From: Coriobacteriia bacterium
GTDB taxonomy: Bacteria; Actinomycetota; Coriobacteriia; Anaerosomatales; Anaerosomataceae
Assembly: GCA_030651765.1 (NCBI GenBank)
Contig: JAUSBY010000003.1
Span: forward strand, 124,001-188,000
DNA length: 64,000 nt
Reading direction: 5' to 3'
Made by a program: the position numbers and the translations under genes. The notes beneath the pieces were generated by a model. That model ran no database searches and was not told the DNA's origin. It worked only from the letters and a program-made list of their open reading frames with translations. Numbering within the stretch: position 1 is the first letter of the stretch; each line of letters opens with the position of its first letter. Shown piece by piece: positions 35,960 through 51,379 of this stretch.

Positions 35960-38900
35960 ATGGTGTCCGTATCGGTTCGCAGAAGGCACGTCTCCCTGCT
36001 TGTGGCGATAGCGCTCGTGGCGCTTTCGTTCCCTGCGTCGGCGGGGGCGACGGCGCCACTCGGGCGGAAGGTCCCGTCTGCGGAGCGCACATCGCGTGCC
36101 GCCCGGCTCGTCGAAGACGTGGGAGCGGCAGGCCGGGTGCCCGAGGCTACCTTTGCCGAGGGTGAGGTGCTCGTCAGGTTCGATCGCGGCGTCTCGGCGG
36201 CCTCGGCAGGTGTCGCGCACGCCAGGGTCGGGTCGCGGGTCGCACGCGCGTACTCGGTCGTCGACGGCCTGCAACTGGCCAGGTTGCGACCAGGCACGAG
36301 CGTCGAGGATGCGATCGCTGCGTACGAGGCGATGCCGGGTGTCATCTACGCACAGCCCAACTACATCAAGAGGATCACGGCGATGCCGGATGACACCGGC
36401 TTCGGCGAGCTGTGGGGGTTGCACAACACGGGCCAGAACGGTGGCACGGCGGATGCCGACATCGATGCGCCCGAGGCGTGGGACCGCACCACCGGTTCCT
36501 CGGACGTCATCATCGCCGTGGTGGACACGGGCGTGGACTACGAGCACCCGGATCTTGCCGACAACATGTGGGTGAACCCCGGCGAGATCCCCGGCAACGG
36601 CATCGATGACGACGGGAATGGTTACGTCGACGATGTGCACGGCTGGGATGCCGTCAATGGCGACGGTGATCCTATGGACGATAACGGCCACGGCACGCAC
36701 TGCGCGGGCACCATCGGCGGGGTCGGAGACAACGGGCTCGGTATCACGGGCGTGAACTGGGACGTCTCGATCATGGCCGTCAAGATGCTCGACGCTGATG
36801 GCAACGGGCTCACGAGCGACGTTCTCGAGTGCTTCGAGTACATCGACGCGGCCGGTGCCCACCTCTCGAGCAACTCATGGGGTGGCTGGTACCCGTTCGA
36901 CCAGGCCGAGTACGACGCCATCGCCGCAGTGGACAAGCTCTTCGTGTTCGCCGCGGGCAACGACGGCGTGCTCATCGAGGGGTCGTCCTCCTTCCTGCCG
37001 GCCGGCTACGACCTGCCGAACATCCTGTCCGTGGGAGCGACCGACAACAAGGACCTGCCGGCCTCGTTCTCCAACAGGGGCGCCACCCGCGTGGACGTCT
37101 TCGCTCCGGGGGAGATGATCTTGAGCACCGTTCCCGGGGACCGGCGGGTCTCGATCTCGCCGGGCGCCACCGTCAACACGCTGTACAGCACGGGTTTCAC
37201 GGATCTCACAGGCTGGACCGTTGCGGACTACAGCAACAAGCCGTGGGAGCTGACCACGGGAGCCTACACGTCGGCACCGTCGAGTGTGGCCCATCTCAAC
37301 TACGCGAACGATGAAGAGGCCTACGTCGACCAGGTCACAACCGTCGACCTGTCCGGAGCGGACTTCCCGGGCGTGCGGTTCGAGTGGCGCTACGATGTGG
37401 AGCCGGACTGGGACTACGCACACGTTTGGGTCTACGGCTCGGGTACCGGCACCTGGTCACTCGTCGAACTGGCCACGGGAGACAGCGGGGGATTCGAGGA
37501 GCGGTGCCTCGATCTCGGTGCATACGCCGGGCAGACGGTCCGCCTCTCCTTCGGCATCTCATCTGACGAGGTGATCGACTCGGCAGCCGGCTACGACGGC
37601 GTGTGGATCGACGATCTGGAGGTCTTCGATCTCGATCCCGCAGAGGGTTCACCGTGGGCGTACTGGGCCGATCACGAAGATGCCTATGGCTACAAGAGCG
37701 GTACGTCCATGGCCACACCGCACGTCGCGGGGGTGGCGGGGCTGCTCATGGCCCAGGACGGCACGCGGGACTGGAGCGACCTCAAGGGCCTCCTCATGGA
37801 TACCGTGGACGAGAAGGCATCACTTGCCGGTCTATGCGTGACCGAGGGCCGCATCAACGCGGCTTCCGCGCTGGCGGCCGAGGCACCCAACGCCGCTCCG
37901 GTAGCCGTTTCCGACGCGTACACGGCCGCGCGCAACACGGCGCTCGTCATCTCCGCGCCCGGCGTGCTCGCCAACGACACAGACGCTGACAGCGATACGC
38001 TGAGCGCCCAGAAGCTGACCAATCCTACCCACGGCGCGGTGACGCTCCTGTCCACCGGCGGTTTCACGTACACGCCAGAGGCCGACTTCATCGGCACGGA
38101 CAGCTTCACGTACAGAGCCAACGACGGCGCCGAGGTCTCGAACACCGCCACCGTGGACATCACAGTCGCGCTTCCCAGGGGCGCCTTCAGAGTGTGGGGG
38201 CTCGACCGTTACCTCACGAGTGCCGAGGCCTCGAGACGGGCGTTCACCACGGCCGATACCGTGGTCGTCGCCACAGGCGGCAACTGGCCCGACGCGCTCG
38301 GCGGCAGCGCGCTTGCCGGTGCCGTGGACGGACCGCTGTTGCTCACGACGCCCGGTGCGCTTCCGGCGTCTATACGCGACGAGATCGTCAGACTCGGCGC
38401 TACGAAGGCGTACGTGCTCGGCGGCACGGGTGCCGTGTCGGTCAGTGTCGAGAACGCGCTCAAGTCCCTGGTGGGAGGCAACGTCAAGCGTCTGAAGGGC
38501 GATGACCGCTACGCCACGGCCCAGGCGATCGCGGAGGAGACGGTCGCGCAGCTCGGGCCGGCGTACACGGGCGGCGTGCTCGTGGCGACGGGCGCCAACT
38601 TCCCGGACGCCACCGCCGCTTCGCCGCTCGCGGCCGCGCTCGGACGGCCCATCGTGCTGGTGAACCGCGCGACGGGCGCATACCGTCTGCCGACCGGCGC
38701 GACGAGTGCGCTCATCCTCGGCGGGGTGAACGTGGTGCCGGGGGCGGTGGAGGACTCACTCGAGCTCGCCCTGGGCGACGGGAACGTCATGCGCAAGGGC
38801 GGAGCGAACCGCTACGAGACCGCGGCCCTCGTGGCCCAGGCCGGTGTGGACGCAGGCATGAGCTGGAACGGTGTCGGCCTGGCGACGGGGGAGAACTTCC

Positions 38901-39103
38901 CCGATGCGCTCGCCGGTGGCGCGATGCTTGGCGCCTGGAACGGTGTCATGCTGCTCACGACACCCACCGCGCTGCGGACAGAAGCCTACACGAAGCTCTC
39001 TACGAACAAGTCGAAGATCGACACGCTCTACGTTATCGGCGGTGACGGTGCGGTCTCGTCGGCAGTCTTCACGGCCGCCAAGTCGGCTGCCGTCATCCCG
39101 TAG
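35960..39103 (+). CDS. Secreted subtilisin-like serine protease with inserted beta-domain, cadherin-like domain and three wall-binding-2 repeats
   Basis: A 1047-residue exported protease. Signal peptide about 1-30; inhibitor-like propeptide about 60-140 (GEVLVRFDRGV, LARLRPGTSVEDAI); S8 catalytic domain with Asp189 (VVDTGVDYEHPDL), His244 (GHGTHCAGT), oxyanion Asn334 and Ser583 (SGTSMATPHVAG). Between Asn334 and Ser583, about residues 400-558 form an extra beta-rich MAM/jelly-roll-like domain. A cadherin-like repeat (about 645-737, NDTDADSDTL) and three cell-wall-binding-2 repeats (about 745-1047, DRYATAQAIA) follow. It is probably held on the wall and degrades environmental protein, or processes other surface proteins. 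ACGAGGAG precedes the ATG by 6 bases. Confidence 0.94.
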   Translation: MVSVSVRRRHVSLLVAIALVALSFPASAGATAPLGRKVPSAERTSRAARLVEDVGAAGRVPEATFAEGEVLVRFDRGVSAASAGVAHARVGSRVARAYSVVDGLQLARLRPGTSVEDAIAAYEAMPGVIYAQPNYIKRITAMPDDTGFGELWGLHNTGQNGGTADADIDAPEAWDRTTGSSDVIIAVVDTGVDYEHPDLADNMWVNPGEIPGNGIDDDGNGYVDDVHGWDAVNGDGDPMDDNGHGTHCAGTIGGVGDNGLGITGVNWDVSIMAVKMLDADGNGLTSDVLECFEYIDAAGAHLSSNSWGGWYPFDQAEYDAIAAVDKLFVFAAGNDGVLIEGSSSFLPAGYDLPNILSVGATDNKDLPASFSNRGATRVDVFAPGEMILSTVPGDRRVSISPGATVNTLYSTGFTDLTGWTVADYSNKPWELTTGAYTSAPSSVAHLNYANDEEAYVDQVTTVDLSGADFPGVRFEWRYDVEPDWDYAHVWVYGSGTGTWSLVELATGDSGGFEERCLDLGAYAGQTVRLSFGISSDEVIDSAAGYDGVWIDDLEVFDLDPAEGSPWAYWADHEDAYGYKSGTSMATPHVAGVAGLLMAQDGTRDWSDLKGLLMDTVDEKASLAGLCVTEGRINAASALAAEAPNAAPVAVSDAYTAARNTALVISAPGVLANDTDADSDTLSAQKLTNPTHGAVTLLSTGGFTYTPEADFIGTDSFTYRANDGAEVSNTATVDITVALPRGAFRVWGLDRYLTSAEASRRAFTTADTVVVATGGNWPDALGGSALAGAVDGPLLLTTPGALPASIRDEIVRLGATKAYVLGGTGAVSVSVENALKSLVGGNVKRLKGDDRYATAQAIAEETVAQLGPAYTGGVLVATGANFPDATAASPLAAALGRPIVLVNRATGAYRLPTGATSALILGGVNVVPGAVEDSLELALGDGNVMRKGGANRYETAALVAQAGVDAGMSWNGVGLATGENFPDALAGGAMLGAWNGVMLLTTPTALRTEAYTKLSTNKSKIDTLYVIGGDGAVSSAVFTAAKSAAVIP

Positions 39104-40886: not shown

Positions 40887-42809
40887 GTGACGCCGGACGT
40901 CACTGTCATCATCGCCGCCTACAACGCGATGCCGTACGTGACTCGGTGCGTCACCTCCATCTTCGAACAGTCGCTTGCGCCGGAGCGCATCGAGATCATC
41001 GCGGTGGACGACGGGTCGGCCGATGGCACGGGCGAGGAGCTCGACCGGCTGGCCGCCTGCGTTTCGAACATGACCGTCATCCACCAGGAGAACTCCGGCA
41101 CGCCCGCCGGTCCTCGCAACGTCGCGCTCGACCGGGCGCACGGGCGGTTCGTATTGTTCCACGACGCGGACGACCATCTCGGTGCCGAGGCGCTCGAGCG
41201 CATGGTCGCGATGGCGGATGCCAACGGCACCGACGTCGTGCTCGGCCGCATCGTCGGCGGCGGCGGCCGGCCGGCGCCACGCTCGATGTTCACGCACACG
41301 CGTCAGAGGACCGACGTGTTCGACTCGCGTGTCTGGTGGACCCTCGGGCCGCAGAAGCTGTTCCGGCGCGAGCTCGTCGAACGGCTCGGCCTTCGGTTCA
41401 AGACGCGTTTCCCGCAGGGCGAGGACATGCCGTTCGTGGGCGCAGCGTATCTGGCGGCCTCGGGCATCTCCATCCTGGCTGACTACGACTGCATCTATCT
41501 CACGTGGCGCGATGACGGACAGAACATCACCCTCACGCGGACCGGCCTACCCGAGCGTCTCGCGATCGCCGGGGCCATGTTCGACCTCGTCGACGAGCGG
41601 GTGGAGCCGGGCGAACGTCGCGACCAGCTCATGCACCGCCACTTCGCGGTCGAGGTGGTCGACACCGTGGTGCCTCCCCTCGTCGCCGAGACCGATCCGC
41701 TGCGCCGCGATGAGGCCGTGGGTCTGATCCGCTCGTGGATCGAGCGCTGGTACACGCCCGCGCTCGAGCGTCGCGTGCAGCCGCTGCACCGCCTGTACCT
41801 GTACCTCATACGGGAGGGTCGGATCGCCGAGCTTTCCGTGGTCTACCGGTGGGTGGCCGAGGGAGGCGAGCCCGAGACCGTTCTTGATGGCGACCGCGCC
41901 TACCGTGCGTATCCGTTCTTTCGGGATCCGGCTGCCGGCATCCCGGACGCATGCTTCGACACCACCGATCGCCTGCCGATCGAGCACCAGCTCGAGGCTG
42001 TCGCCATCGATGGCACCCGGATCGGTGTCACGCTCCAGGCACGCTTCGGCATGCTCGGCGACGAGAGCGCGCAGGCGTGTCTCGTCCTACGCGATCGGGC
42101 GACACGCCGGGAGTTCGTCGCGCCCCTCTCGGGCAACGCCGACGACGCCGGCTTCTCGGGGCGGATCGATCTGGCGACCATCGCCGACGGGCACCCGATC
42201 GGCCGCGGACTCTGGGACCTGTTCGTGCAGCTCGAGCTCCGCGGCATCGAGAAGCGCGCCCGCATCGGCAGGCACCGGGTCGGGAGTGTGGACGGCTTGC
42301 TACGCCCCGGCTACCTGGCGCTGCCCGGCGCCGAGACCACCGTCGTGCCGTACTTCACCGATCCACACGACAACCTCACGTTCGACATCGGAGGCGTCTC
42401 CCGCCAGGCGCCGCCGGCACTGTCGCTCGAGCGCATCGCGTGGCGGGAGGGGGCCGATGCGACGCTCGACATCATCGGGTCCTGGAACGTCGGCGGTGTG
42501 CCTGCCGATGCCGTCCGCGCCGTGCTGATGGCCGCCGATGGCACCACGCACGTCGTGCGGGGCGGCGAGTCGGACGCGCCTGGCGGCTTCTCGCTCGCAG
42601 TCCCTCTCAAGACGGTTGCAGCAGGCCGGCCGCTCGGCGAGGGTATCTGGACGCTTGCGGTTCGGATCGAGGCGCCGGGGCTCAGGCAGGGGGTCGCGTC
42701 AGCCGGGGTGGAGGCTGGCTCGGCCACCATGCGTCGTGGGCTTCGGAAGGTGCCGGTCGGGTTGCGGGCCGACGGTGCCGGTGTCGCCATCACCGTTGGA
42801 CGTGCCTGA
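40887..42809 (+). CDS. Family 2 glycosyltransferase with two C-terminal beta-sandwich accessory domains
   Basis: A 640-residue GT-A enzyme. The N-terminal 300 residues have TVIIAAYNAMPYVTRCVTSI, AVDDGSADGTGEEL and the DxD-type FHDADDHLG, typical of GT2 enzymes that add wall or capsule sugars. From about 380 two beta-rich segments follow. Both carry a similar late strand (HPIGRGLWDLFVQLEL and RPLGEGIWTLAVRIEA), so they look like a tandem repeat, and a related module opens the TagF-like protein at 43973. GTG at 40887 has GGAAGG 9 bases upstream. Convergent with a TagF gene; probably adds the sugar or linkage unit of the wall polymer. Confidence 0.85.
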   Translation: MTPDVTVIIAAYNAMPYVTRCVTSIFEQSLAPERIEIIAVDDGSADGTGEELDRLAACVSNMTVIHQENSGTPAGPRNVALDRAHGRFVLFHDADDHLGAEALERMVAMADANGTDVVLGRIVGGGGRPAPRSMFTHTRQRTDVFDSRVWWTLGPQKLFRRELVERLGLRFKTRFPQGEDMPFVGAAYLAASGISILADYDCIYLTWRDDGQNITLTRTGLPERLAIAGAMFDLVDERVEPGERRDQLMHRHFAVEVVDTVVPPLVAETDPLRRDEAVGLIRSWIERWYTPALERRVQPLHRLYLYLIREGRIAELSVVYRWVAEGGEPETVLDGDRAYRAYPFFRDPAAGIPDACFDTTDRLPIEHQLEAVAIDGTRIGVTLQARFGMLGDESAQACLVLRDRATRREFVAPLSGNADDAGFSGRIDLATIADGHPIGRGLWDLFVQLELRGIEKRARIGRHRVGSVDGLLRPGYLALPGAETTVVPYFTDPHDNLTFDIGGVSRQAPPALSLERIAWREGADATLDIIGSWNVGGVPADAVRAVLMAADGTTHVVRGGESDAPGGFSLAVPLKTVAAGRPLGEGIWTLAVRIEAPGLRQGVASAGVEAGSATMRRGLRKVPVGLRADGAGVAITVGRA

Positions 42810-42818
42810 CGGCGTCGG

Positions 42819-43976
42819 TCACGCCCGCGGGTGCAGTCCGGGGAGTAGGATGTCGCGCACGACCCGTTCGCTCGCGTGTCCGTCGGCCACATCGAACCAC
42901 CGCTGGCGGAATGCACGGACCCGCCCGAGGTCGAACCGTCCGGCGGCGATGTGTTCGGCGAGTCCGGCGGTCGTCGTGAAGATCGGCCCGGGTACGTCCG
43001 AGGCGTAGTCGAAGTAGAAGCCGCGCTCGCGTTCGTACGCCTCGTAGTCGGGAGCGTAGAACAGCATCGGCCGCTCGAGCAACGAGAACTCGAAGATCGC
43101 GCTCGAGTAGTCGGTGACGAGCACGTCACTCGCCAGCATGAGCTCGTTGATGTCGGGGTGATCCGACACATCGACGACGAATTCCCTGAGATGCTCGGGT
43201 ATGACCGCCGAGGTGGCCACGAACGGGTGAAGTCTCAGTAGCCAGACGCAGTCCGCACCGCATGTGTCGGCGAGCAGCTCGAGATCGAGCGCATCGTGAT
43301 AGCGAGCCTCATGGACGGTGTCGCCCCTGAAGGTCGGCGCGTACAGCACGATGGTCTTGCCGTCCGGAAGCCGGTAGCGCTCCCGGACGCGGCGAGGCGC
43401 GCGGACGCGGCGGGCGGGGTCGAAGAACAGGTCCGTCCGCGGTATCCCGGTCACGAAGAACCGCTCCTCGGGCTGTCCGAAGGCCTCTGCGTAGTGCGGG
43501 ATGGCGTTTCTGGAGGCGACCAGGCAGTGCGTGTAGTTGGCGTGGATCCTGACCTGCCGAAGCAGCGATGCGCTTGCGCCGAACGTCTTGCCCGCGACGC
43601 TGTACCCGACCTTCTTGAACGCGCCCGAGGCGTGCCACGTCTGCACGATCGTCGTGCCTGGCTTGGGGCGGATCGGATAGAGCGGGAAGTAGTAGTCGTC
43701 CACGATGAAGACCCGCGACGTGGCGAGGTAGTACTCGGCACGTATCGCGGTCGCGAGTGTTGCGAGCTTGCCCGCCAGCGTGTCGACCGAGCGGTGAAGT
43801 AGCAGAACGGCATCGGTGCCGGGGGCCTGGCGGAGCAACTCGTCGTGTACCCACCTGAGGTTGCCGCGGAGGCGCTCGGCGTGGTTGGACGCGAGCACCA
43901 CGCGGTCCCGGACCGGCAGGGGCCTGAACGCGAACCACGCGAGCCGCAGCACCCACTTCCTGAGAAAGACGATCAC
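42819..43976 (-). CDS. TagB/TagF-like polyol-phosphate transferase
   Basis: A 385-residue member of the CDP-glycerol glycerophosphotransferase family, which moves glycerol- or ribitol-phosphate from CDP-polyol onto wall teichoic acid. The N-terminus is a membrane-associated segment (FLRKWVLRLAWFAFRPL). Family motifs are QTWHASGAFKKVGYS, TGIPRTDLFFD, VLYAPTFRGD, LRLHPFV, DINELMLASDVLVTDYSSAIFEF, and a late DGHASERV. GTG at 43976 overlaps the upstream gene's stop by four bases. Which polyol it uses cannot be told from sequence. Confidence 0.9.
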   Translation of the reverse strand: MIVFLRKWVLRLAWFAFRPLPVRDRVVLASNHAERLRGNLRWVHDELLRQAPGTDAVLLLHRSVDTLAGKLATLATAIRAEYYLATSRVFIVDDYYFPLYPIRPKPGTTIVQTWHASGAFKKVGYSVAGKTFGASASLLRQVRIHANYTHCLVASRNAIPHYAEAFGQPEERFFVTGIPRTDLFFDPARRVRAPRRVRERYRLPDGKTIVLYAPTFRGDTVHEARYHDALDLELLADTCGADCVWLLRLHPFVATSAVIPEHLREFVVDVSDHPDINELMLASDVLVTDYSSAIFEFSLLERPMLFYAPDYEAYERERGFYFDYASDVPGPIFTTTAGLAEHIAAGRFDLGRVRAFRQRWFDVADGHASERVVRDILLPGLHPRA

Positions 43977-45694
43977 CGGCCGGCACGTCCCAAGACGAGC
44001 TCGTCGATGATGCGGTCGGTCGCGTGTCCATCGTGGTGCTCGAGGTGGCGCTCGGCGAACGCGGTCACCTTCTCGGCTTCGAAATCCTGTGCCCGGATGG
44101 CGTCGAGCATCTCGTCGAAGGTCCTCACGATTCTGCCGGGCACGAACACCTCGTAGCCCTCGTAGAAGTCGCGGGCGCTGATGTAGTCCTCGAGGTCGTA
44201 GGCGAAGAAGAGCATCGGTCGGCCAAGTGTGCAGTACTCGAAGACCAGTGAGGAGTAGTCGGTGATCACGAGGTCGGCGATGAACAGCAGGTCGTTGACC
44301 TCGCGGATGGCGCTCGCTTCGATCAGGCGGTCCGTCAGCTCGGCCGGGATCTCGAGCGGTTCGATCACGAAGGGGTGCATCTTGAACACGACGACCGCGT
44401 CGCGCTCGACAGCCAGGTCGTGGAGCGCCTGAAGGTCGAGACGGTCATGGTCGTAGTAGGCGTCCGACGGCCCCTTTCCCCGGAACGTCGGGGCGAACAG
44501 GATGACCTCGCGCCCGCGGGTCTCGGGCAGCTGTTCCCGCATCCTCTCGGCGGTACGCTCCCGGTACGCGGCGTCGAAGAAGACGTCCATGCGCGGGATC
44601 CCTGTGGGCACGACACGCTTCTCATCGATGCCGAATGCCTCGGCGTAGAACGGGACGTCGTGCCGGGAGCTCACTATCGCGTGCGTGTAGTTCTTGTGCA
44701 CGCGTGAGAACGGATTCGGCCCTCCCGGCTTGCCGATTCGGCTGTAGCCGACCGTCTTGAACGCTCCCGAGGCGTGCCAGAGCTGGATGATCGACACGTC
44801 GGGTGGGAACTCGACCTTGTACAGGGTCGGGTGATAGTCGTCGAGAAGGATCACGTCGGCGGCGGCAAGGTAGAAAGGAAGGCGGATCTTGTCCGCGAGC
44901 GGCCGACGCACGGTGGTGCTCTCCTTGAACAGGTACCAGAACGTGTACTCGCCCTCGAAACCGCGCTCGCGCATGCGATCGCGCACGTCGAGCAGGTTGC
45001 CCGATATCGTCGCGCGCGAGTCGGACGTGAACAGGATCCGCGTGCCCGTGCGCTTCACCAACCGCCTGCAGATGCGGTACGAGCTCTTGAAGAGGAGCTC
45101 CCGCGTGCGCCGCAGGCGTCTCCTGATCCTCGCGCCGAGGCGGGACGGGAGCGAACCTCGCCCGCCCGCCGCGCGGTTCTTGCGGTACGTGACCGCGAGC
45201 GCGAAGCGGCCGCCGGCACGTTCCACGACCGGGAACAGCCAGTAGCGGCCGCCCCGGACCGAGCGGATGCCGTCGTAGCCGAACGCGGGAATCGTCAGGT
45301 CCGGGCTCATACGGACCGGTGCCACGTCGCCTGCCGGCGTCACGATGCGGACGAGCCACGTTCCGGTGACGAGGGGGTCGCCGTCAAGGGCGAAGAACAC
45401 GGCGACATCCAGCGTGAAGCGTTCGCCTGCGACCCGCACGCTATCCACTCGCGCGCGACGCTCGCTGCGGGCTTCCTGCAGGTAGACGTCCGAGCCTGCG
45501 AGAGCCCCCGCATCAGGTGTGCCGCCGGAGCCGTTGGCGACCAGCGTCCCGTGCAGACGGAGGCGGGTGCGCTCCCACTCCAGCGCGTCGACGACGAGTG
45601 CGAACGTGGCCTCGGTCTCGGGCATCGATTCGCCGTCGGGCGCGAACCGATGCCGGTCCGCATCGCTACTCGTTGGCGAACTCATGTCCGACAT
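43973..45694 (-). CDS. TagF-like polymerase with N-terminal beta-sandwich domain
   Basis: A 573-residue CDP-polyol phosphotransferase. The first 175 residues form an all-beta module with GTWLVRIVTPAGDVAPVRM and YWLFPVVERAGGRFALAV, resembling the accessory domains of the GT2 protein at 40887. The catalytic region has QLWHASGAFKTVGYSRIG, TGIPRMDVFFDA, ILFAPTFRGKG, FKMHPFV, and ADLVITDYSSLVFEYCTLGRP. ATG at 45694 follows GGGGATC by about 7 bases and overlaps the ABC ATPase gene by 29 bases, so translation is coupled. Likely elongates the wall polymer. Confidence 0.9.
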   Translation of the reverse strand: MSDMSSPTSSDADRHRFAPDGESMPETEATFALVVDALEWERTRLRLHGTLVANGSGGTPDAGALAGSDVYLQEARSERRARVDSVRVAGERFTLDVAVFFALDGDPLVTGTWLVRIVTPAGDVAPVRMSPDLTIPAFGYDGIRSVRGGRYWLFPVVERAGGRFALAVTYRKNRAAGGRGSLPSRLGARIRRRLRRTRELLFKSSYRICRRLVKRTGTRILFTSDSRATISGNLLDVRDRMRERGFEGEYTFWYLFKESTTVRRPLADKIRLPFYLAAADVILLDDYHPTLYKVEFPPDVSIIQLWHASGAFKTVGYSRIGKPGGPNPFSRVHKNYTHAIVSSRHDVPFYAEAFGIDEKRVVPTGIPRMDVFFDAAYRERTAERMREQLPETRGREVILFAPTFRGKGPSDAYYDHDRLDLQALHDLAVERDAVVVFKMHPFVIEPLEIPAELTDRLIEASAIREVNDLLFIADLVITDYSSLVFEYCTLGRPMLFFAYDLEDYISARDFYEGYEVFVPGRIVRTFDEMLDAIRAQDFEAEKVTAFAERHLEHHDGHATDRIIDELVLGRAGR

Positions 45695-46877
45695 AGGTGA
45701 TCCCCGTTCCGAGATAGTCTTGCTGCTCGATGCGGAACGGCCGCTTGTTCGAGTAGCCGACGTAGAAGCCCGCGTCATTGTTCCACAACTCGCCCGACAG
45801 CAGGTACTCGCCTGCGAGAAGGTTGGGTGACTTGAGGCGAACGCGCAGGTGGTGCGTGCCCGGCGAGGAGTCGACCGTGTTGGCGGGATTGCGCTTGTCG
45901 GCCATGTACACCTCGAGCTGTTCTGCATTGCGAATCGTGTAGCAGAACGTCAGGGCCTCGACCGGACGCTTCACCGTGTAGTCGAACTCGAAGACGATGT
46001 CCTCCCCGTAGGCGAACGTGGTCGCCTTGTCGCCGGCGGCAGTGCGCATCGCAAAGCCTGACACCTCGACGATGTCGCGCTTCTCCTGCGGCGTGTCGAC
46101 GTCGTCGTCCTCGGCCCGCTTTCGTTTCGTGCGCGCCCGCTCGGCACGCAGGAAGTCCTCGTATGCCAGGACGACCGGTCCGAGTTCGCCCTGCTCGATG
46201 ATGCGGCCACGGTCGATCCACACGCCGAGCGTGCAGAACGCCTTGACCGTGAACAGCGAGTGGCTCACGAACAGGATCGTCTTGCCCTGGCGCCGGAACT
46301 CCTCCATCGCGTCGATGCACTTGAGCTTGAACACATCGTCGCCGACGGCGAGGACCTCATCCACGATGAGGATGTCGGGGTCGACGTTGACCGACACCGC
46401 GAAGCCGAGTCGGGACTTCATGCCGCTCGAGTACGTGCGCACGGGCTGCGTGATGTGCTCGCCGATGTCAGCGAACTCGATGATCGCGGCCATCCGCTGG
46501 TCGATCTCGGCGCGCGCGATCCCCATCGATACTGCCTTCAGGTACACGTTCTCAACGCCGGTGAGCTCGGGGTCGAATCCCGAGGTCAGCTCGAGCATGG
46601 CCGAGATGCGGCCGTCCACTTCGACCGTGCCACTCGTGGCCGAGGTCACGCCGGTGATGATCTTGAGCAGCGTCGACTTGCCCGATCCGTTCTTCCCGAC
46701 GATCGCGATGACCTCGCCTTTCGGGAAATCGAGCGTCACATCGTCAAGTGCCGTGAACGCCCGTCCCGTCGGCGTGCGCCTGAACGCATCGAGTGCGCGG
46801 CCGAGCGAGGAGTCGTAGATGCGGTACGACTTCGTCAGGTTGCGTACGCGGATAGCGTGTCGCGGCGAGGCGGCCAT
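45666..46877 (-). CDS. Polysaccharide/teichoic acid ABC exporter ATP-binding protein (TagH/Wzt-like)
   Basis: A 403-residue ATPase of the O-antigen/teichoic-acid export group. The N-terminal ATPase (about 1-250) has Walker A GKNGSGKST, SGFDPELTGVENVYL, signature-region TYSSGMKSRLGFAVSVN, Walker B ILIVDEVLAVGD, and SHSLFTVKAFC. The C-terminal domain (about 270-403) resembles the Wzt-C carbohydrate-binding beta-sandwich with GTHHLRVRLKSPNLLAGEYLLSGE. The permease gene lies directly upstream with no gap. Together they flip the lipid-linked polymer across the membrane. Confidence 0.94.
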   Translation of the reverse strand: MAASPRHAIRVRNLTKSYRIYDSSLGRALDAFRRTPTGRAFTALDDVTLDFPKGEVIAIVGKNGSGKSTLLKIITGVTSATSGTVEVDGRISAMLELTSGFDPELTGVENVYLKAVSMGIARAEIDQRMAAIIEFADIGEHITQPVRTYSSGMKSRLGFAVSVNVDPDILIVDEVLAVGDDVFKLKCIDAMEEFRRQGKTILFVSHSLFTVKAFCTLGVWIDRGRIIEQGELGPVVLAYEDFLRAERARTKRKRAEDDDVDTPQEKRDIVEVSGFAMRTAAGDKATTFAYGEDIVFEFDYTVKRPVEALTFCYTIRNAEQLEVYMADKRNPANTVDSSPGTHHLRVRLKSPNLLAGEYLLSGELWNNDAGFYVGYSNKRPFRIEQQDYLGTGITYVGHEFANE

Positions 46878-47693
46878 CTAGAGCACGTCCGCGAAGTCAG
46901 GCTGCAGGCGGTGGTACAGATAGCCGGCGATCAGCATGAGCAGGCCGGTGAGTCCCCAGAAGTACGCCGTGTAGCGAAGGCTGCCAAATAGCCAGTCAGG
47001 CCGCAGCAGGGCGTGCCGATAGCCTTCGATGAGGTACGTGAGGGGGTTTGCCAGGATCGCCCACCTGAGCGTGCCGTGGACGCTCGAGAGCGGCCAGATG
47101 ATCGGTGTCAGCCAGAACATCACCCGTGTGAACGAGCGCACCATGTGGCCTACGTCGGCACTCACGGCCGATAGCGTGGAGATGAGGATGGCGACCACCG
47201 ACGCGAAGACGAGCGTCGCGAACATGTAGTAGAGCAGCTGGAGGGTGTGGACGGTGAACCCGGGTCCGGCGAGCGCGAGTATGAGGACCGACGGCATCAG
47301 GAGCATGAGGTGCGCGAAGAACAGTGCGATCACGGTGAACACGGGAATGGTCGAGACGGGGAAGACCATCTTTGTCACGAGGTGGCGGTGATCTCTAATC
47401 GCCGTACCGCCGATGGTGAGCGCATCGTTCAGGAAGAACCACGGGACGATCCCCGGGATGAGCCACAGGATGTACGGGACGTCCTCGATCGGCTTGCCGC
47501 CGCGCAGCCCCACCGAGATCGCGAACCAGTAGACGGCGATGAAGACCGCGGGCCTGACGACCGCCCAGCCTACGCCGAGTAGCGAGCCGCTGTAGCGCTT
47601 GGTGAGGTCGAAGCGCGCCATCGCAAGCGTTCGACGGACGTTGCGCGCATTGCTCACCGCGATCTCGCGAAGCCCCCGCCATGCAGCACCCAC
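46878..47693 (-). CDS. Polysaccharide/teichoic acid ABC exporter permease (TagG/Wzm-like)
   Basis: A 271-residue membrane protein with about six helices: VVRPAVFIAVYWFAISVGL, PYILWLIPGIVPWFFLNDAL, VFTVIALFFAHLMLLMPSVL and others, with the ABC-2 motif RDHRHLVTKMVFPVSTIP. GTG at 47693 is chosen because AAAGG lies 7 bases upstream; the frame runs on upstream as far as 47780. It abuts the ATPase gene downstream. It exports the polymer made by the TagF-like and GT2 enzymes of this cluster. Confidence 0.9.
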   Translation of the reverse strand: MGAAWRGLREIAVSNARNVRRTLAMARFDLTKRYSGSLLGVGWAVVRPAVFIAVYWFAISVGLRGGKPIEDVPYILWLIPGIVPWFFLNDALTIGGTAIRDHRHLVTKMVFPVSTIPVFTVIALFFAHLMLLMPSVLILALAGPGFTVHTLQLLYYMFATLVFASVVAILISTLSAVSADVGHMVRSFTRVMFWLTPIIWPLSSVHGTLRWAILANPLTYLIEGYRHALLRPDWLFGSLRYTAYFWGLTGLLMLIAGYLYHRLQPDFADVL

Positions 47694-47856
47694 CGAACCG
47701 CCTTTCGCCGTGCAGTGTTCGCGCCGTCCGTCCGGCGCCTGATTCGACAGACTCACGGTAACAGATACTATTGTAGGCATCCTCGGGCCCTGTCGCGGCG
47801 TCCGGGACTTCGATGATCAGGTATCGGCGCCACGTGCGGGCGGATGGAGTGAGCGT

Positions 47857-48546
47857 ATGAGACGCGGCTTGATGGTATTGGCCGGCGGAGTCGGCGAGCG
47901 CATGGGCCAGCCGATGCCCAAGCAGTTCATCCTGCTCGCAGGCAAGCCGATCATCGCGCACGTACTCGACCGCGTCCGGGATCTCCCCGACATCACCAAG
48001 ATAATCGTGTGCCCACCCGAGCACGTATCGCTGACCGAGGAGCTCCTCGCGCACCGGAACCTCGCCGACCGCTTCACGTGTGTCGTGGGTGGCGCGACGC
48101 GCCAGGAGTCTGTCTACAACGGCCTCTCGTACTTCGAGGGCTACGACTCGGTCGTGATCCACGAGGCGGTTCGGCCGTTCGTGACGACAGCGGAGTTCCA
48201 GGCACTCATAGACGATCCGGCCGAGAACGCCATCTATGGTTCGCCGATCCCGTTCACGGTGCTCGTCGGCCATGAGTACGTAGAGCAGACGCTCGACCGG
48301 TCGTCGCTCGTCAACGTGCAGTTGCCCCAGAAGTTCGATGTGGTGCGGCTTCGGGCCGCGCACGAGGCGGCGCGTGCCGAGGGCCGTGTGTTCACCGAAG
48401 ACGCGAGTCTGCTCCATCACTACGGGCAGGGCCGGGTACGGATCCTCCCGGGCACGGCGAACAACATCAAGATCACGCAGCCGGTCGACCTGGTGCTCGG
48501 GGAGGCCATCTACAGCGAATACGTCCTCAGGGGAGCGTCCGACTGA
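47857..48546 (+). CDS. IspD/TarI-type cytidylyltransferase
   Basis: A 229-residue nucleotidyltransferase. It has LAGGVGERMGQPMPKQFILLAGKPII, QESVYNGL, VVIHEAVRPFV and NIKITQPVDLVLGEAI, which define the IspD/TarI fold. In the isoprenoid pathway the substrate is methylerythritol phosphate; here the wall-polymer setting and the SDR partner favour CDP-ribitol synthesis, as in TarI or the fused Haemophilus Acs1. GGAG lies 7 bases before ATG. Its stop overlaps the SDR start by one base, so the pair is coupled. Confidence 0.88.
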   Translation: MRRGLMVLAGGVGERMGQPMPKQFILLAGKPIIAHVLDRVRDLPDITKIIVCPPEHVSLTEELLAHRNLADRFTCVVGGATRQESVYNGLSYFEGYDSVVIHEAVRPFVTTAEFQALIDDPAENAIYGSPIPFTVLVGHEYVEQTLDRSSLVNVQLPQKFDVVRLRAAHEAARAEGRVFTEDASLLHHYGQGRVRILPGTANNIKITQPVDLVLGEAIYSEYVLRGASD

Positions 48547-49259
48547 TGAAGACCTGCATCATCACCGGCGCGAGTCAGGGAATCGGGCGCGCCGCCGCCA
48601 TACGCATGAGCAAGGAGCCCGGAGTCGGTAACCTGGTTCTCATCGCGCGGAGCGAGGAAGGCCTCGCGGCGACGCGCGACGCCATGGAGTCGGACGGCAA
48701 GCGCATCGAGCTCGTGGCGTTCGATCTGGCCGACCTCGACGCGGTTCCCGCGATGGTCAAACGCGTGTACGAGGAGTTCGGCTCGATCGACCTGCTGCTC
48801 AACATCGCTGGTTACGCCGAGCCGGCCGCTTTGCTCGACACCACCACCGAGAACATCATGACGACGTTCCAGGTCAACGTGTTCGCGCTCATCGTGCTCA
48901 CGCGCGAGTGTGTGAAGTACATGCGGCACTCGGCATCGAAGATCTTGAACGTCGCGTCTACGGCGGGCGTCACCTCCCGCCCCGGCTGGCTCGCCTACGC
49001 CGCATCGAAAGCCGCCGTGGTCTCGATCTCCAACACGCTCACCGACGAGCTGGCCGAGTACGGTATCAAGGTATACAGCATCTCGCCGGGCCGCTGCGCC
49101 ACCGAGCTCAGGCGCAAGCTCGCTCCCGAGGAGGACCCGTCGACGATCATGCAGCCGGAGGATGTGGCTGAGGTCATCGCCACGCTCATGCGCGACGATG
49201 AGACGTGCCTGGACGGGCAGAACCTCATCGTCCGTCAGGCACCGACAGCGGGCCGATGA
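48546..49259 (+). CDS. Short-chain dehydrogenase, probable ribulose-5-phosphate reductase
   Basis: A 237-residue SDR with the nucleotide site TGASQGIGRAAAIRM, NIAGYAEPA, and the catalytic YAASK (Ser-Tyr-Lys) segment near residue 156. SDRs have many substrates; the assignment as reductase supplying ribitol-5-phosphate comes from its overlap with the IspD/TarI gene upstream and the TagF-like gene downstream, an arrangement that matches the two halves of Acs1. A different sugar reductase remains possible. Start ATG at 48546; AGGGGAG lies about 10 bases upstream. The stop overlaps the next gene's ATGA. Confidence 0.8.
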   Translation: MKTCIITGASQGIGRAAAIRMSKEPGVGNLVLIARSEEGLAATRDAMESDGKRIELVAFDLADLDAVPAMVKRVYEEFGSIDLLLNIAGYAEPAALLDTTTENIMTTFQVNVFALIVLTRECVKYMRHSASKILNVASTAGVTSRPGWLAYAASKAAVVSISNTLTDELAEYGIKVYSISPGRCATELRRKLAPEEDPSTIMQPEDVAEVIATLMRDDETCLDGQNLIVRQAPTAGR

Positions 49260-50380
49260 CGGTACTCGAGCTGTATCTGTCCAGGGTGTTCCTGCGCGTG
49301 TGGTGGGTGGCCTTCCGGCTGCTGCCGGTCAACCGCTCGAAGGTGGTCCTGGCTTCGGCGCGGGCCGAGCGGCTCGAAGGCAACTTGTTGTTCATCGATC
49401 GCGCTCTGGAACGCATGCGCCCCGACCTTGACCGTGTGCACCTGCTTGAGCGCTACGGCTATGGTCTGGCCGACAAGGTTCGTTACCTGCTCCACCTCGT
49501 TCGCGCCACCTACCACCTTGCGACGGCCCGGTACTTCATCATCGACAACGCGTACCTGCCCGTTCACGTCCTGCCGCACCGGCCGGAGACGGTGGTCATC
49601 CAGGTGTGGCATGCGATGGACGCGCTCAAGCGGTTCGGTCTGGACACGCACGAGGCCGAGCGACCGGTCGAGCGCACGTTTCTCCACAGGCGGTACGACT
49701 ACGTGATCGTCGGCTCCGACGCGGCGGTCGCGCCGTACGCATCGGCGCTGCGGACCGACCCGGACCGCGTGATCCCGCTCGGCTCGGCGCGCAGCGACTT
49801 CTTCTCCGATGAGGCGGCGATGTCCGATGCCCGACGACGCATGGTCGAGCAGTATCCGGAGATAGCCGGTCGCCGGGTGATCCTCTACGCCCCGACGTTC
49901 AGGGGTGTCGGCCATGAGAAGCATTCGGCGCGCCTACTCGACCTCGCGCGCCTCGTCGACCTCCTCGGCGAGGGTGACGTCCTCGTCTACAAGCGACATC
50001 CGGTTCTCGGTCCGGGATCGCGCCCGCACCTCCCCGGCGTCGTCTACGTGGATGCCGATGTGGACCTGAACGAGGTGTTCTGTGTCACCGACATTCTGGT
50101 GACCGACTACACCTCGGCCATCTTCGAGTACGCGCTGCTGCGGCGCCCGCTCGTGCTGATAGTCCCGGATATCGAGGAGTACGAGCGCGATCCGGGCCTC
50201 TACCTCGACTATCGCACCGAGATGATAGGCGTCATGGCGACCACCACAGACGAGGTTGCCGACATCATCGCGCGTGGAGAGTTCGATATGCGCCCGTTCG
50301 AGGCGTTCATCGCGACACACGGGCATCGCGCCGACGGGCATGCCAGCGAGCGGTTCGTGGAGTTCCTGGGCCAGCGGTGA
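49256..50380 (+). CDS. TagB/TagF-like polyol-phosphate transferase
   Basis: A 374-residue family member with FLRVWWVAFRLLPVNRSKVVL, QVWHAMDALKRFGLDTHE, ILYAPTFRGVGHEKH, VYKRHPVLGPG, DLNEVFCVTDILVTDYTSAIFEYALLRRP, and a late GHRADGHASER. It resembles the 42819 protein more than the 43973 one, and shares its C-terminal DGHASER. It closes the three-gene IspD-SDR-TagF unit, each gene overlapping the last. Probably the primer or first polymerase step using the CDP-polyol made by the two preceding enzymes. Confidence 0.9.
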   Translation: MTVLELYLSRVFLRVWWVAFRLLPVNRSKVVLASARAERLEGNLLFIDRALERMRPDLDRVHLLERYGYGLADKVRYLLHLVRATYHLATARYFIIDNAYLPVHVLPHRPETVVIQVWHAMDALKRFGLDTHEAERPVERTFLHRRYDYVIVGSDAAVAPYASALRTDPDRVIPLGSARSDFFSDEAAMSDARRRMVEQYPEIAGRRVILYAPTFRGVGHEKHSARLLDLARLVDLLGEGDVLVYKRHPVLGPGSRPHLPGVVYVDADVDLNEVFCVTDILVTDYTSAIFEYALLRRPLVLIVPDIEEYERDPGLYLDYRTEMIGVMATTTDEVADIIARGEFDMRPFEAFIATHGHRADGHASERFVEFLGQR

Positions 50381-50437: not shown

Positions 50438-50467
50438 TACCCGGGAACTCGCGAGGGTGTGAGACGC

Positions 50468-51379
50468 ATGACGCGCCGAACTCGCATACTGATAGGTGTG
50501 GTCCTCGTCGTGGCAGTCGCGGCCCTGGCGTTCGCGTTCGGGCCTCGCGGGCCGGACGCCGATCCGACGGCTGAGCCCCACCTCGGCGCGGCGCCTGAAC
50601 CGGCCGTGCCGGAGCCGACTCCCGAGCCGGGCGCGCCGCGGTCACCCGCGCCGCGCGATCCGACACCGGTCGAGTCTCCAGCCACTCCCGAGCCCGACGA
50701 CGACACCCGCTACGGCTGGTACTACATCGCCAACTCCTCGCATGACGCGCCGGGCGTGCCTGCCGAGGCGAGCCGTCTGCTGGCCGCCTACGGCGGCATC
50801 TACACCGGCCCGGACCCCGGTGCGGTCTACCTCACGGTCGACCAGGGCTACGAGAACGGCAACACGCCGGCCATCCTCGACGCGCTCGCGCGCAACGGCG
50901 TGAAGGCGACCTTCTTCGTCACCAGGTCCTACGTCGTCAACAACCCCGACCTCGTTCGGCGCATGGCCGATGAGGGACACGTTGTCGGCAACCATACGTC
51001 GACGCACCCGTCGCTGCCGGGGATCGCCACCGACCAGGCGACGTTCGCCGAAGAGCTCGAAAGCACGGAGCGTGCGTACGAGGAGGTCACGGGCCGTTCG
51101 ATGGCGCCGATCATGCGACCGCCGATGGGGGAGTACAGCGCCCGTGCGCTGTGGCTCACGCAGCAGCTCGGCTACACGAGCGTGTTCTGGGGCTTCGCGC
51201 ACCGCGACTGGGTCGTGGATGACCAACCGCCGGTCGACGTCACGATCAGCCGGATCCTCGGCGGTAGCCATCCCGGCGCCATCTACCTGCTGCACGGCGT
51301 GTCCTCGAGCGACACGCAGGCGCTCGATGCGGCCATCGAGGGTCTACGCGCGCAGGGATACGACTTCGGCGTGCTCTAG
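50468..51379 (+). CDS. Membrane-anchored PdaA-like polysaccharide deacetylase
   Basis: A 303-residue carbohydrate esterase-4 protein, anchored by a helix at about 7-25 and followed by a Pro/Glu-rich linker (about 30-80). The NodB-type domain has LTVDQGYENGNTPAILDAL, NGVKATFFVT, GNHTSTHPS (His176, His180), RPPMGEYS and LLHG. The wording GYENGxT resembles PdaA, the N-acetylmuramate deacetylase used for muramic-lactam. The residue after catalytic Asp125 is Gln126 where NodB-type enzymes have Asp and PdaA has Asn. ATG at 50468 is favoured over GTG at 50459 because of spacing from GAGGG. Likely remodels cell wall after the teichoic cluster. Confidence 0.86.
   Translation: MTRRTRILIGVVLVVAVAALAFAFGPRGPDADPTAEPHLGAAPEPAVPEPTPEPGAPRSPAPRDPTPVESPATPEPDDDTRYGWYYIANSSHDAPGVPAEASRLLAAYGGIYTGPDPGAVYLTVDQGYENGNTPAILDALARNGVKATFFVTRSYVVNNPDLVRRMADEGHVVGNHTSTHPSLPGIATDQATFAEELESTERAYEEVTGRSMAPIMRPPMGEYSARALWLTQQLGYTSVFWGFAHRDWVVDDQPPVDVTISRILGGSHPGAIYLLHGVSSSDTQALDAAIEGLRAQGYDFGVL

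Follow-up and report, generated by a model that had tools for sequence, protein, structure and literature searches.

A coupled cytidylyltransferase and reductase gene pair in a teichoic-acid-type cluster of a Coriobacteriia genome belongs to a multi-phylum clade and may supply CDP-ribitol

Which activated alditol feeds a TarL-like polymerase in a genome where neither TagD nor a canonical TarI is detected? The question is raised by a compact teichoic-acid-type cluster at positions 40887-50380 of a 64,000-nucleotide stretch of contig JAUSBY010000003.1 (the window, in whose coordinates the cluster is described), which belongs to a 2.26 Mb Coriobacteriia metagenome-assembled genome of 97.41% stated completeness. 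The cluster consists of two divergent blocks and one glycosyltransferase family 2 (GT2) gene; the leftward block runs permease, ATPase, TarL-like, and TagF-like, and the rightward block runs IspD-like cytidylyltransferase, short-chain dehydrogenase/reductase (SDR), and third PF04464 protein (Table 1). A first-pass annotation of the window had listed this gene set (IspD-like, SDR, three TagF-like proteins, a GT2, and a TagGH-like exporter) at these coordinates, which the reading frames and Pfam searches confirmed, and had interpreted the IspD-like and SDR genes as the two halves of Acs1, the fused cytidine diphosphate ribitol (CDP-ribitol) synthase of Haemophilus. What stands of that interpretation is a teichoic-acid-type cluster with its own cytidylyltransferase and reductase pair and a TarL-like polymerase that favours ribitol; the match to the Acs1 halves does not. 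We estimate a probability of roughly 60% that the pair makes CDP-ribitol, and a two-enzyme pair, found in other bacterial phyla too and distinct from the enzymes known in Staphylococcus and Haemophilus, is the probable source of the polymer's building block.

The two genes are tightly coupled. The one-base overlap claimed for them was read directly (TGA of the IspD-like gene at 48544-48546, ATG of the SDR gene from 48546), and the SDR and third transferase genes overlap in an ATGA at 49256-49259. The products score 157 bits (156.7) against IspD (PF01128) and 162 bits against adh_short (PF00106), and the three transferases score 220, 288, and 272 bits against Glyphos_transf (PF04464). The cytidylyltransferase scores 171.7 bits against the IspD family TIGR00453, just below the cut-off of 181.3, and 112 bits against the TarI family NF001183, for which the cut-off is 166. 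The genome holds two further PF01128 matches: a gene on contig C7 (200.5 bits), which is a second IspD that retains the usual DT and TPQ residues, and a match on C10 (43 bits), which on reading the sequences is GlmU with an IspE-like gene upstream; a canonical TarI was not found among these three. The first-pass annotation had named a cytidylyltransferase confined to the methylerythritol phosphate (MEP) pathway, in a genome with no other IspD, as the finding that would overturn its reading. Because a separate, ordinary IspD exists on C7, the pair is not the MEP enzyme, and a housekeeping role for the window gene was rejected.

The cytidylyltransferase also falls outside TarI. In a tree of 96 rows (L106 was left out for a run of Ns, and L113, L092, and identical rows were dropped), 72 clade rows from several phyla form one side of a branch with support of 100/99, and the TarI rows, the Acs1-like rows, and two Bacteroidales paralogues group together (99/90) with the window's clade outside. 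The separate pair clade spans Bacillota, Bacteroidota, Chloroflexota, Spirochaetota, Actinomycetota, and others. Nine fused Acs1-like proteins stood in for Haemophilus Acs1 in our comparisons, four of them carrying the annotation bifunctional cytidylyltransferase/SDR family oxidoreductase (L132, L137-L139) and five taken from unannotated sequence (L117-L120, L133). One of these, L137, lies within an O118/O151-type O-antigen cluster, an antigen that probably contains ribitol phosphate, with no confirmation found in print. Like Acs1/Bcs1 of Haemophilus, the window's pair places an IspD-type domain before a classical SDR with the loop P[GE]R..T.[LM]R, and, like the four annotated Acs1-like proteins, it has PF04464 or LicD protein partners; unlike Acs1/Bcs1, which is one fused polypeptide, it consists of two coupled genes with a one-base overlap. 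The Acs1-like rows carry GQTPQ and DT, whereas the window cytidylyltransferase carries QLPQ and FT. Measured on the copy in a sister genome (L034), identities are no higher to the Acs1-like halves than to other members of each family (23-31% to the nine Acs1-like halves versus 27-37% to eleven IspD-type rows for the cytidylyltransferase; 24-29% versus 22-31% to 14 generic SDRs for the reductase), and the proposed specific match to the two halves of Acs1 is not borne out. Descent of the pair from a split Acs1 was also considered; the cytidylyltransferase tree speaks against it, and the SDR tree cannot order the groups.

The term split fails on distribution as well. In a scan of named genomes, the best 80 of 88 relatives were kept, comprising 74 members of the clade (L041-L114), two IspD-family genes of Desemzia, and four fused Acs1-like proteins. 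An SDR gene comes next in 73 of the 74 clade loci, the exception (L092) ending about 350 bases on; among 72 pairs examined, spacing was measurable in 68 and was within 20 bases in 65. Flanks searched up to 8 kb, often shortened by contig ends, held a PF04464-like protein at 49 of the 74 loci, a LicD-like protein at 16, and either at 57. Carriers include Bacillaceae, Lachnospiraceae, Oscillospiraceae, Bacteroidales, Chloroflexi, Spirochaetes, and Gordonibacter. Two genes, rather than a local split, are the rule across this large clade as sampled, and its cytidylyltransferase lies outside the TarI/Acs1-like group. An apparent IspD-SDR fusion in L106 (7944-9359), the sole such case in the 74, proved to be an open reading frame running through a run of Ns and was rejected. 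Two smaller observations belong to this survey: a contig labelled as DHVE2 archaeon (L110, 7968-10709) carries an IspD-like/SDR pair with a weak TagF-like match (39 bits), and the pair of Gordonibacter (L107) and of its near relative L037 (10599-15367) adjoins a LicD-type gene with no PF04464-like match, a capsule-like setting that in L037 also includes flippase-like and GT2 genes (genes named by eye).

Close kin of the window genome share the whole arrangement. The permease/ATPase/TarL-like/TagF-like block faces the IspD-like/SDR/TagF-like block in the sister genome (labelled Actinobacteria bacterium UBA2272; cytidylyltransferase 97% identical) and in a second genome of the same family (L035, labelled Coriobacteriia bacterium; the pair 59% and 74% identical), and in a third genome, of the same order (L036; the pair 60% and 69% identical), it is kept as far as the short contig extends. 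Because it recurs in these three genomes, the arrangement is more than chance. Some genomes are represented twice (L034/L041, L035/L042, L036/L043, L038/L107). Within the class, the cytidylyltransferase was found at 189 bits or more in 6 of 197 genomes, the window genome included, with the next match at 124 bits. Among 396 Actinomycetota genomes sampled, with some candidates scored per genome, the window's own genome gave the sole match to the SDR at E <= 1e-45. At the same threshold the SDR had no match among 395 genomes from Desemzia's order (Lactobacillales), in a search that contained no positive control.

The reductase retains the SDR catalytic residues (Ser138, Tyr151, and Lys155). Its loop motif, P[GE]R[TCA]xTx[LM]R, occurs in 76 of 80 clade-labelled rows, in all nine Acs1-like rows, and in none of the 14 generic SDRs compared, which include FabG and SrlD of E. 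coli; the four misses are two incomplete rows (L109, L113) and two other SDRs labelled as clade (L086_clb, L088_clb). The two arginines thereby added to the substrate loop would fit a phosphate, and the motif common to these SDRs and the Acs1-like reductases may reflect either descent or convergence. An unrooted SDR tree of 59 of 103 rows, with the clade thinned by name, gave three groups whose branching order it does not resolve. PF01370 gave no match in the cluster proteins at E <= 0.001.

The identity of the alditol is suggested most directly by the polymerase. A PF04464 search of the genome returned three genes, all within this cluster, and one of them, P0006, is identical to TarL (PDB 8va1) at 179 of 377 positions (47.5%) without a gap. 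It scores 396 bits against TarL 8va1 versus 100 against TagF 3l7i, and the other two transferases score 210 versus 144 (42819-43976) and 139 versus 70 (49256-50380); against the TarL family NF041713, P0006 scores 469 bits, and the cut-off of 1000 is not reached. In a tree of 70 PF04464 rows, selected by score versus TarL from 124 collected, P0006 groups with TarL and with proteins of other pair carriers, one from Coriobacteriia, one from Chloroflexi, and Sporosarcina jiandibaonis (Shimodaira-Hasegawa-like approximate likelihood ratio test, SH-aLRT, 100), and four TarLs identified by position as adjoining a canonical TarI (L063, L181-L183) join the TarL clade (SH-aLRT 99). In S. jiandibaonis (G636) the TarL gene directly precedes the pair, and no TarI match exceeds the cut-off. 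Different supply enzymes would appear to feed one polymerase clade, which is what one would expect of enzymes that deliver the same nucleotide. P0006 differs from TarL 8va1 in that the N-terminal 187 residues are unmatched and in that its genome has no TagD-type glycerol supply. A TarL-like polymerase makes ribitol the likely alditol.

The favoured route starts with the SDR, which would reduce a ketopentose 5-phosphate (D-ribulose 5-phosphate being the likeliest) and so form D-ribitol 5-phosphate; the translationally coupled IspD-like enzyme would transfer cytidine monophosphate from cytidine triphosphate (CTP) onto this product, yielding CDP-ribitol. The chain would be started on an undecaprenyl-linked sugar by one or two of the PF04464 enzymes and lengthened to poly(ribitol phosphate) by the TarL-like enzyme; the TarS-like GT2 would add a sugar, the TagGH-like transporter would export the chain, and the single LytR-CpsA-Psr (LCP) protein of the genome would attach it to the wall. 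The GT2 exceeds the Pfam cut-offs for TarS_linker and TarS_C1, and its best solved relative is 5tz8 (133 bits), listed as 'Glycosyl transferase' and presumably TarS. The ATPase reaches 253 bits against NF010066 (TagH), for which the cut-off is 320. Outside the cluster, the genome encodes a TagA-family protein, the LCP protein, MraY, and a TagO/WecA-like protein that was told from MraY by reading the sequences. The TagD family TIGR01518 has no match in the genome, and the standard linkage unit of glycerol phosphate could therefore not be made by the known route. The sole TagA/WecG-family match (contig C14, L126:9295-10122) sits in another polysaccharide cluster with nucleotide-sugar genes, and its neighbours resemble GDP-mannose dehydratase and GDP-fucose synthase (named by eye).

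Table 1. Genes of the teichoic-acid-type cluster, in window coordinates
Position	Strand	Feature	Basis
40887..42809	+	GT2 glycosyltransferase with TarS_linker and TarS_C1, probable decorating enzyme	Pfam
42819..43976	-	PF04464 transferase (TagF/TarL superfamily); GTG start overlaps the stop of the upstream gene	Pfam
43973..45685	-	TarL-like ribitol-phosphate polymerase, P0006 (predicted)	Pfam, TarL score, identity, tree
45666..46877	-	TagH-like ATP-binding cassette (ABC) ATPase with Wzt C-terminal domain	Pfam, NCBIfam
46878..47780	-	TagG-like ABC-2 permease, start uncertain	Pfam
47857..48546	+	IspD-like cytidylyltransferase from a distinct clade, with IPFTV and QLPQ in place of DT and TPQ	Pfam, tree, residues
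48546..49259	+	Classical SDR reductase, loop PGRCATELR	Pfam, motif
49256..50380	+	Third PF04464 transferase (TagF/TarL superfamily)	Pfam

One alternative concerns the final steps of this route: the polymer might be capsular or lipid-linked rather than a wall-bound teichoic acid. This outcome is possible, if clearly the less probable one: the ATPase carries a Wzt_C domain, TagD is missing for the classical linkage unit, the sole TagA-family gene lies in another polysaccharide cluster, the Gordonibacter pair sits in a LicD-containing, capsule-like cluster, and a lipoteichoic acid is considered by the authors of a study of Eggerthella lenta, in the part of that report cited here (PMC10234575). 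The presence of LCP, TagA-family, and TagO/WecA-like genes in the genome argues instead for attachment to the wall.

Several observations weigh against CDP-ribitol as the product itself. In E. coli IspD numbering, all 22 IspD, TarI, and Acs1-like rows have Asp139 and Thr165, and both are lost in the clade, where position 165 is Leu and position 139 is Phe, Tyr, or Ser in 78 of 78 rows; position 163, Gly in all 11 TarI and Acs1-like rows, is Val, Ile, or Ala. In the window protein, Phe133 and Leu156 correspond to positions 139 and 165. The count of 22 covers the rows without L131, a Streptomyces sequence in which position 139 is Glu and position 165 is Ala, and without the two IspD-family paralogues in L096 and L102, where Asp and Thr are retained; it includes one gene twice (L115 and L156). 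Position 140 is Thr or Ser in the clade, and Thr140 of E. coli IspD is described in the cited portion of its structural literature as hydrogen bonding the hydroxyls of methylerythritol (PMC3111433). A profile of the clade SDRs gives the Acs1-like halves 62-97 bits and generic SDRs 60-118. For 46 of the 74 clade loci the genome was searched for TarI and TagD; NF001183 exceeds its cut-off in seven of these genomes, four of them at 393-400 bits. The locus of Lederbergia galactosidilytica (L063) holds, consecutively, TarI, a TarJ-like dehydrogenase, TagF-like, TarL, the exporter, the pair, and transferases (names partly by eye); TarI and a TarJ-like enzyme in the pair's own locus hint at a different product there, and the two supply pairs could mean two alditols or redundancy, of which the duplicated tar genes of S. 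aureus are an example. On a Streptomyces plasmid (L131, 3171-6775), a TarL-clade protein stands beside an IspD/TarI and an epimerase-type reductase, which cautions that kinship with TarL may not determine the alditol. Finally, no assay of a clade enzyme was found in the open-licence literature.

These points give some room, though well short of an even chance, to the reading that the pair makes a different CDP-alditol, such as CDP-arabinitol, CDP-xylitol, or CDP-erythritol, which would form the polymer backbone. Pneumococcal AbpA/AbpB is reportedly a CDP-arabinitol pair. The loss of Asp139 and Thr165 and the lack of Gly163 would then reflect another acceptor, TarI occurs beside the pair in L063 and on the pair's contig in three more genomes, and TagD, which exceeds its cut-off in 22 of the 46 clade genomes (13 had no match), leaves the pair unneeded there for CDP-glycerol. 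The pair would in that case be a third, separately evolved two-enzyme CDP-alditol synthase with a changed acceptor pocket, its alditol neither glycerol nor ribitol and its polymer backbone unrecognised, a proposal we regard as tentative. The kinship of the polymerase with TarL and the loop motif common to the SDR and the Acs1-like enzymes count against it. CDP-hexitols were considered in particular: the Campylobacter HS5.18/HS5.17 and pneumococcal Mnp1/Mnp2 pairs for CDP-glucitol and CDP-mannitol likewise combine PF01128 with an adjacent reductase, but in the account cited their reductase belongs to PF01370 and acts on the CDP-ketose (PMC10918830). The window's reductase is of the wrong family for such a pair (PF00106), and this reading was rejected.

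A further reading, that the pair stands in for the absent TagD and turns dihydroxyacetone phosphate into some form of CDP-glycerol, is improbable. Bulkier pocket residues in the cytidylyltransferase could suit a smaller acceptor, and TagD was not found in the genome; TagD is nevertheless present in those 22 clade genomes as well, and the polymerase is much nearer TarL than TagF. An ordinary MEP-pathway IspD that happens to adjoin an unrelated SDR is close to refuted, since the PF01128 match and near-threshold IspD score are set against another IspD in the genome, conservation of the pair at 73 of 74 clade loci, and loss of the IspD active-site residues.

CDP-ribitol as the favoured product brings the pair into comparison with two known routes. 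In the cited part of PMC10299916, Haemophilus Bcs1 converts ribulose 5-phosphate, NADPH, and CTP to CDP-ribitol, and the title of a cited paper places reduction before cytidylyl transfer. The TarI-TarJ system resembles the window in having adjacent cytidylyltransferase and reductase genes beside TarL-type polymerases (as in L063), and differs in that TarJ is a longer dehydrogenase of the medium-chain type, whereas here the reductase is a classical SDR and the cytidylyltransferase falls in another clade. If CDP-ribitol is made, the pair would join Acs1 and TarIJ as a third way of carrying out the same reaction, and ribitol-phosphate polymers would be predicted in Coriobacteriia, Chloroflexi, Bacteroidales, and Spirochaetes from genes otherwise read as mere IspD and SDR; if another alditol is made, unrecognised surface polymers would be predicted in the same groups. 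No description of the SDR-type clade was found in the open-licence literature, in a search partly aimed at the clade and with most subscription papers outside its scope.

The first-pass annotation had also held that a ribitol wall polymer would be of interest in such an actinobacterium. Ribitol is likely here, and the idea has a precedent in the same class: at the teichoic acid locus of E. lenta, genes annotated tarI/tarJ lie near tagGH, strains with these genes gave off a metabolite that matched a pentitol, for example ribitol, and the authors inferred, in the part of the report cited, a CDP-ribitol teichoic acid that is possibly lipid-anchored (PMC10234575). Given that proposal, ribitol polymers in the class are not a new idea.

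Two neighbours of the cluster were also noted. A PdaA-like polysaccharide deacetylase lies directly downstream (50459-51379, + strand; 244 bits against TIGR02884, below the cut-off of 298) and is the same neighbour in the sister genome, and a large subtilisin-like protein is encoded nearby (35960-39103, + strand), with apparent C-terminal cell-wall-binding repeats in its translation as judged by eye.

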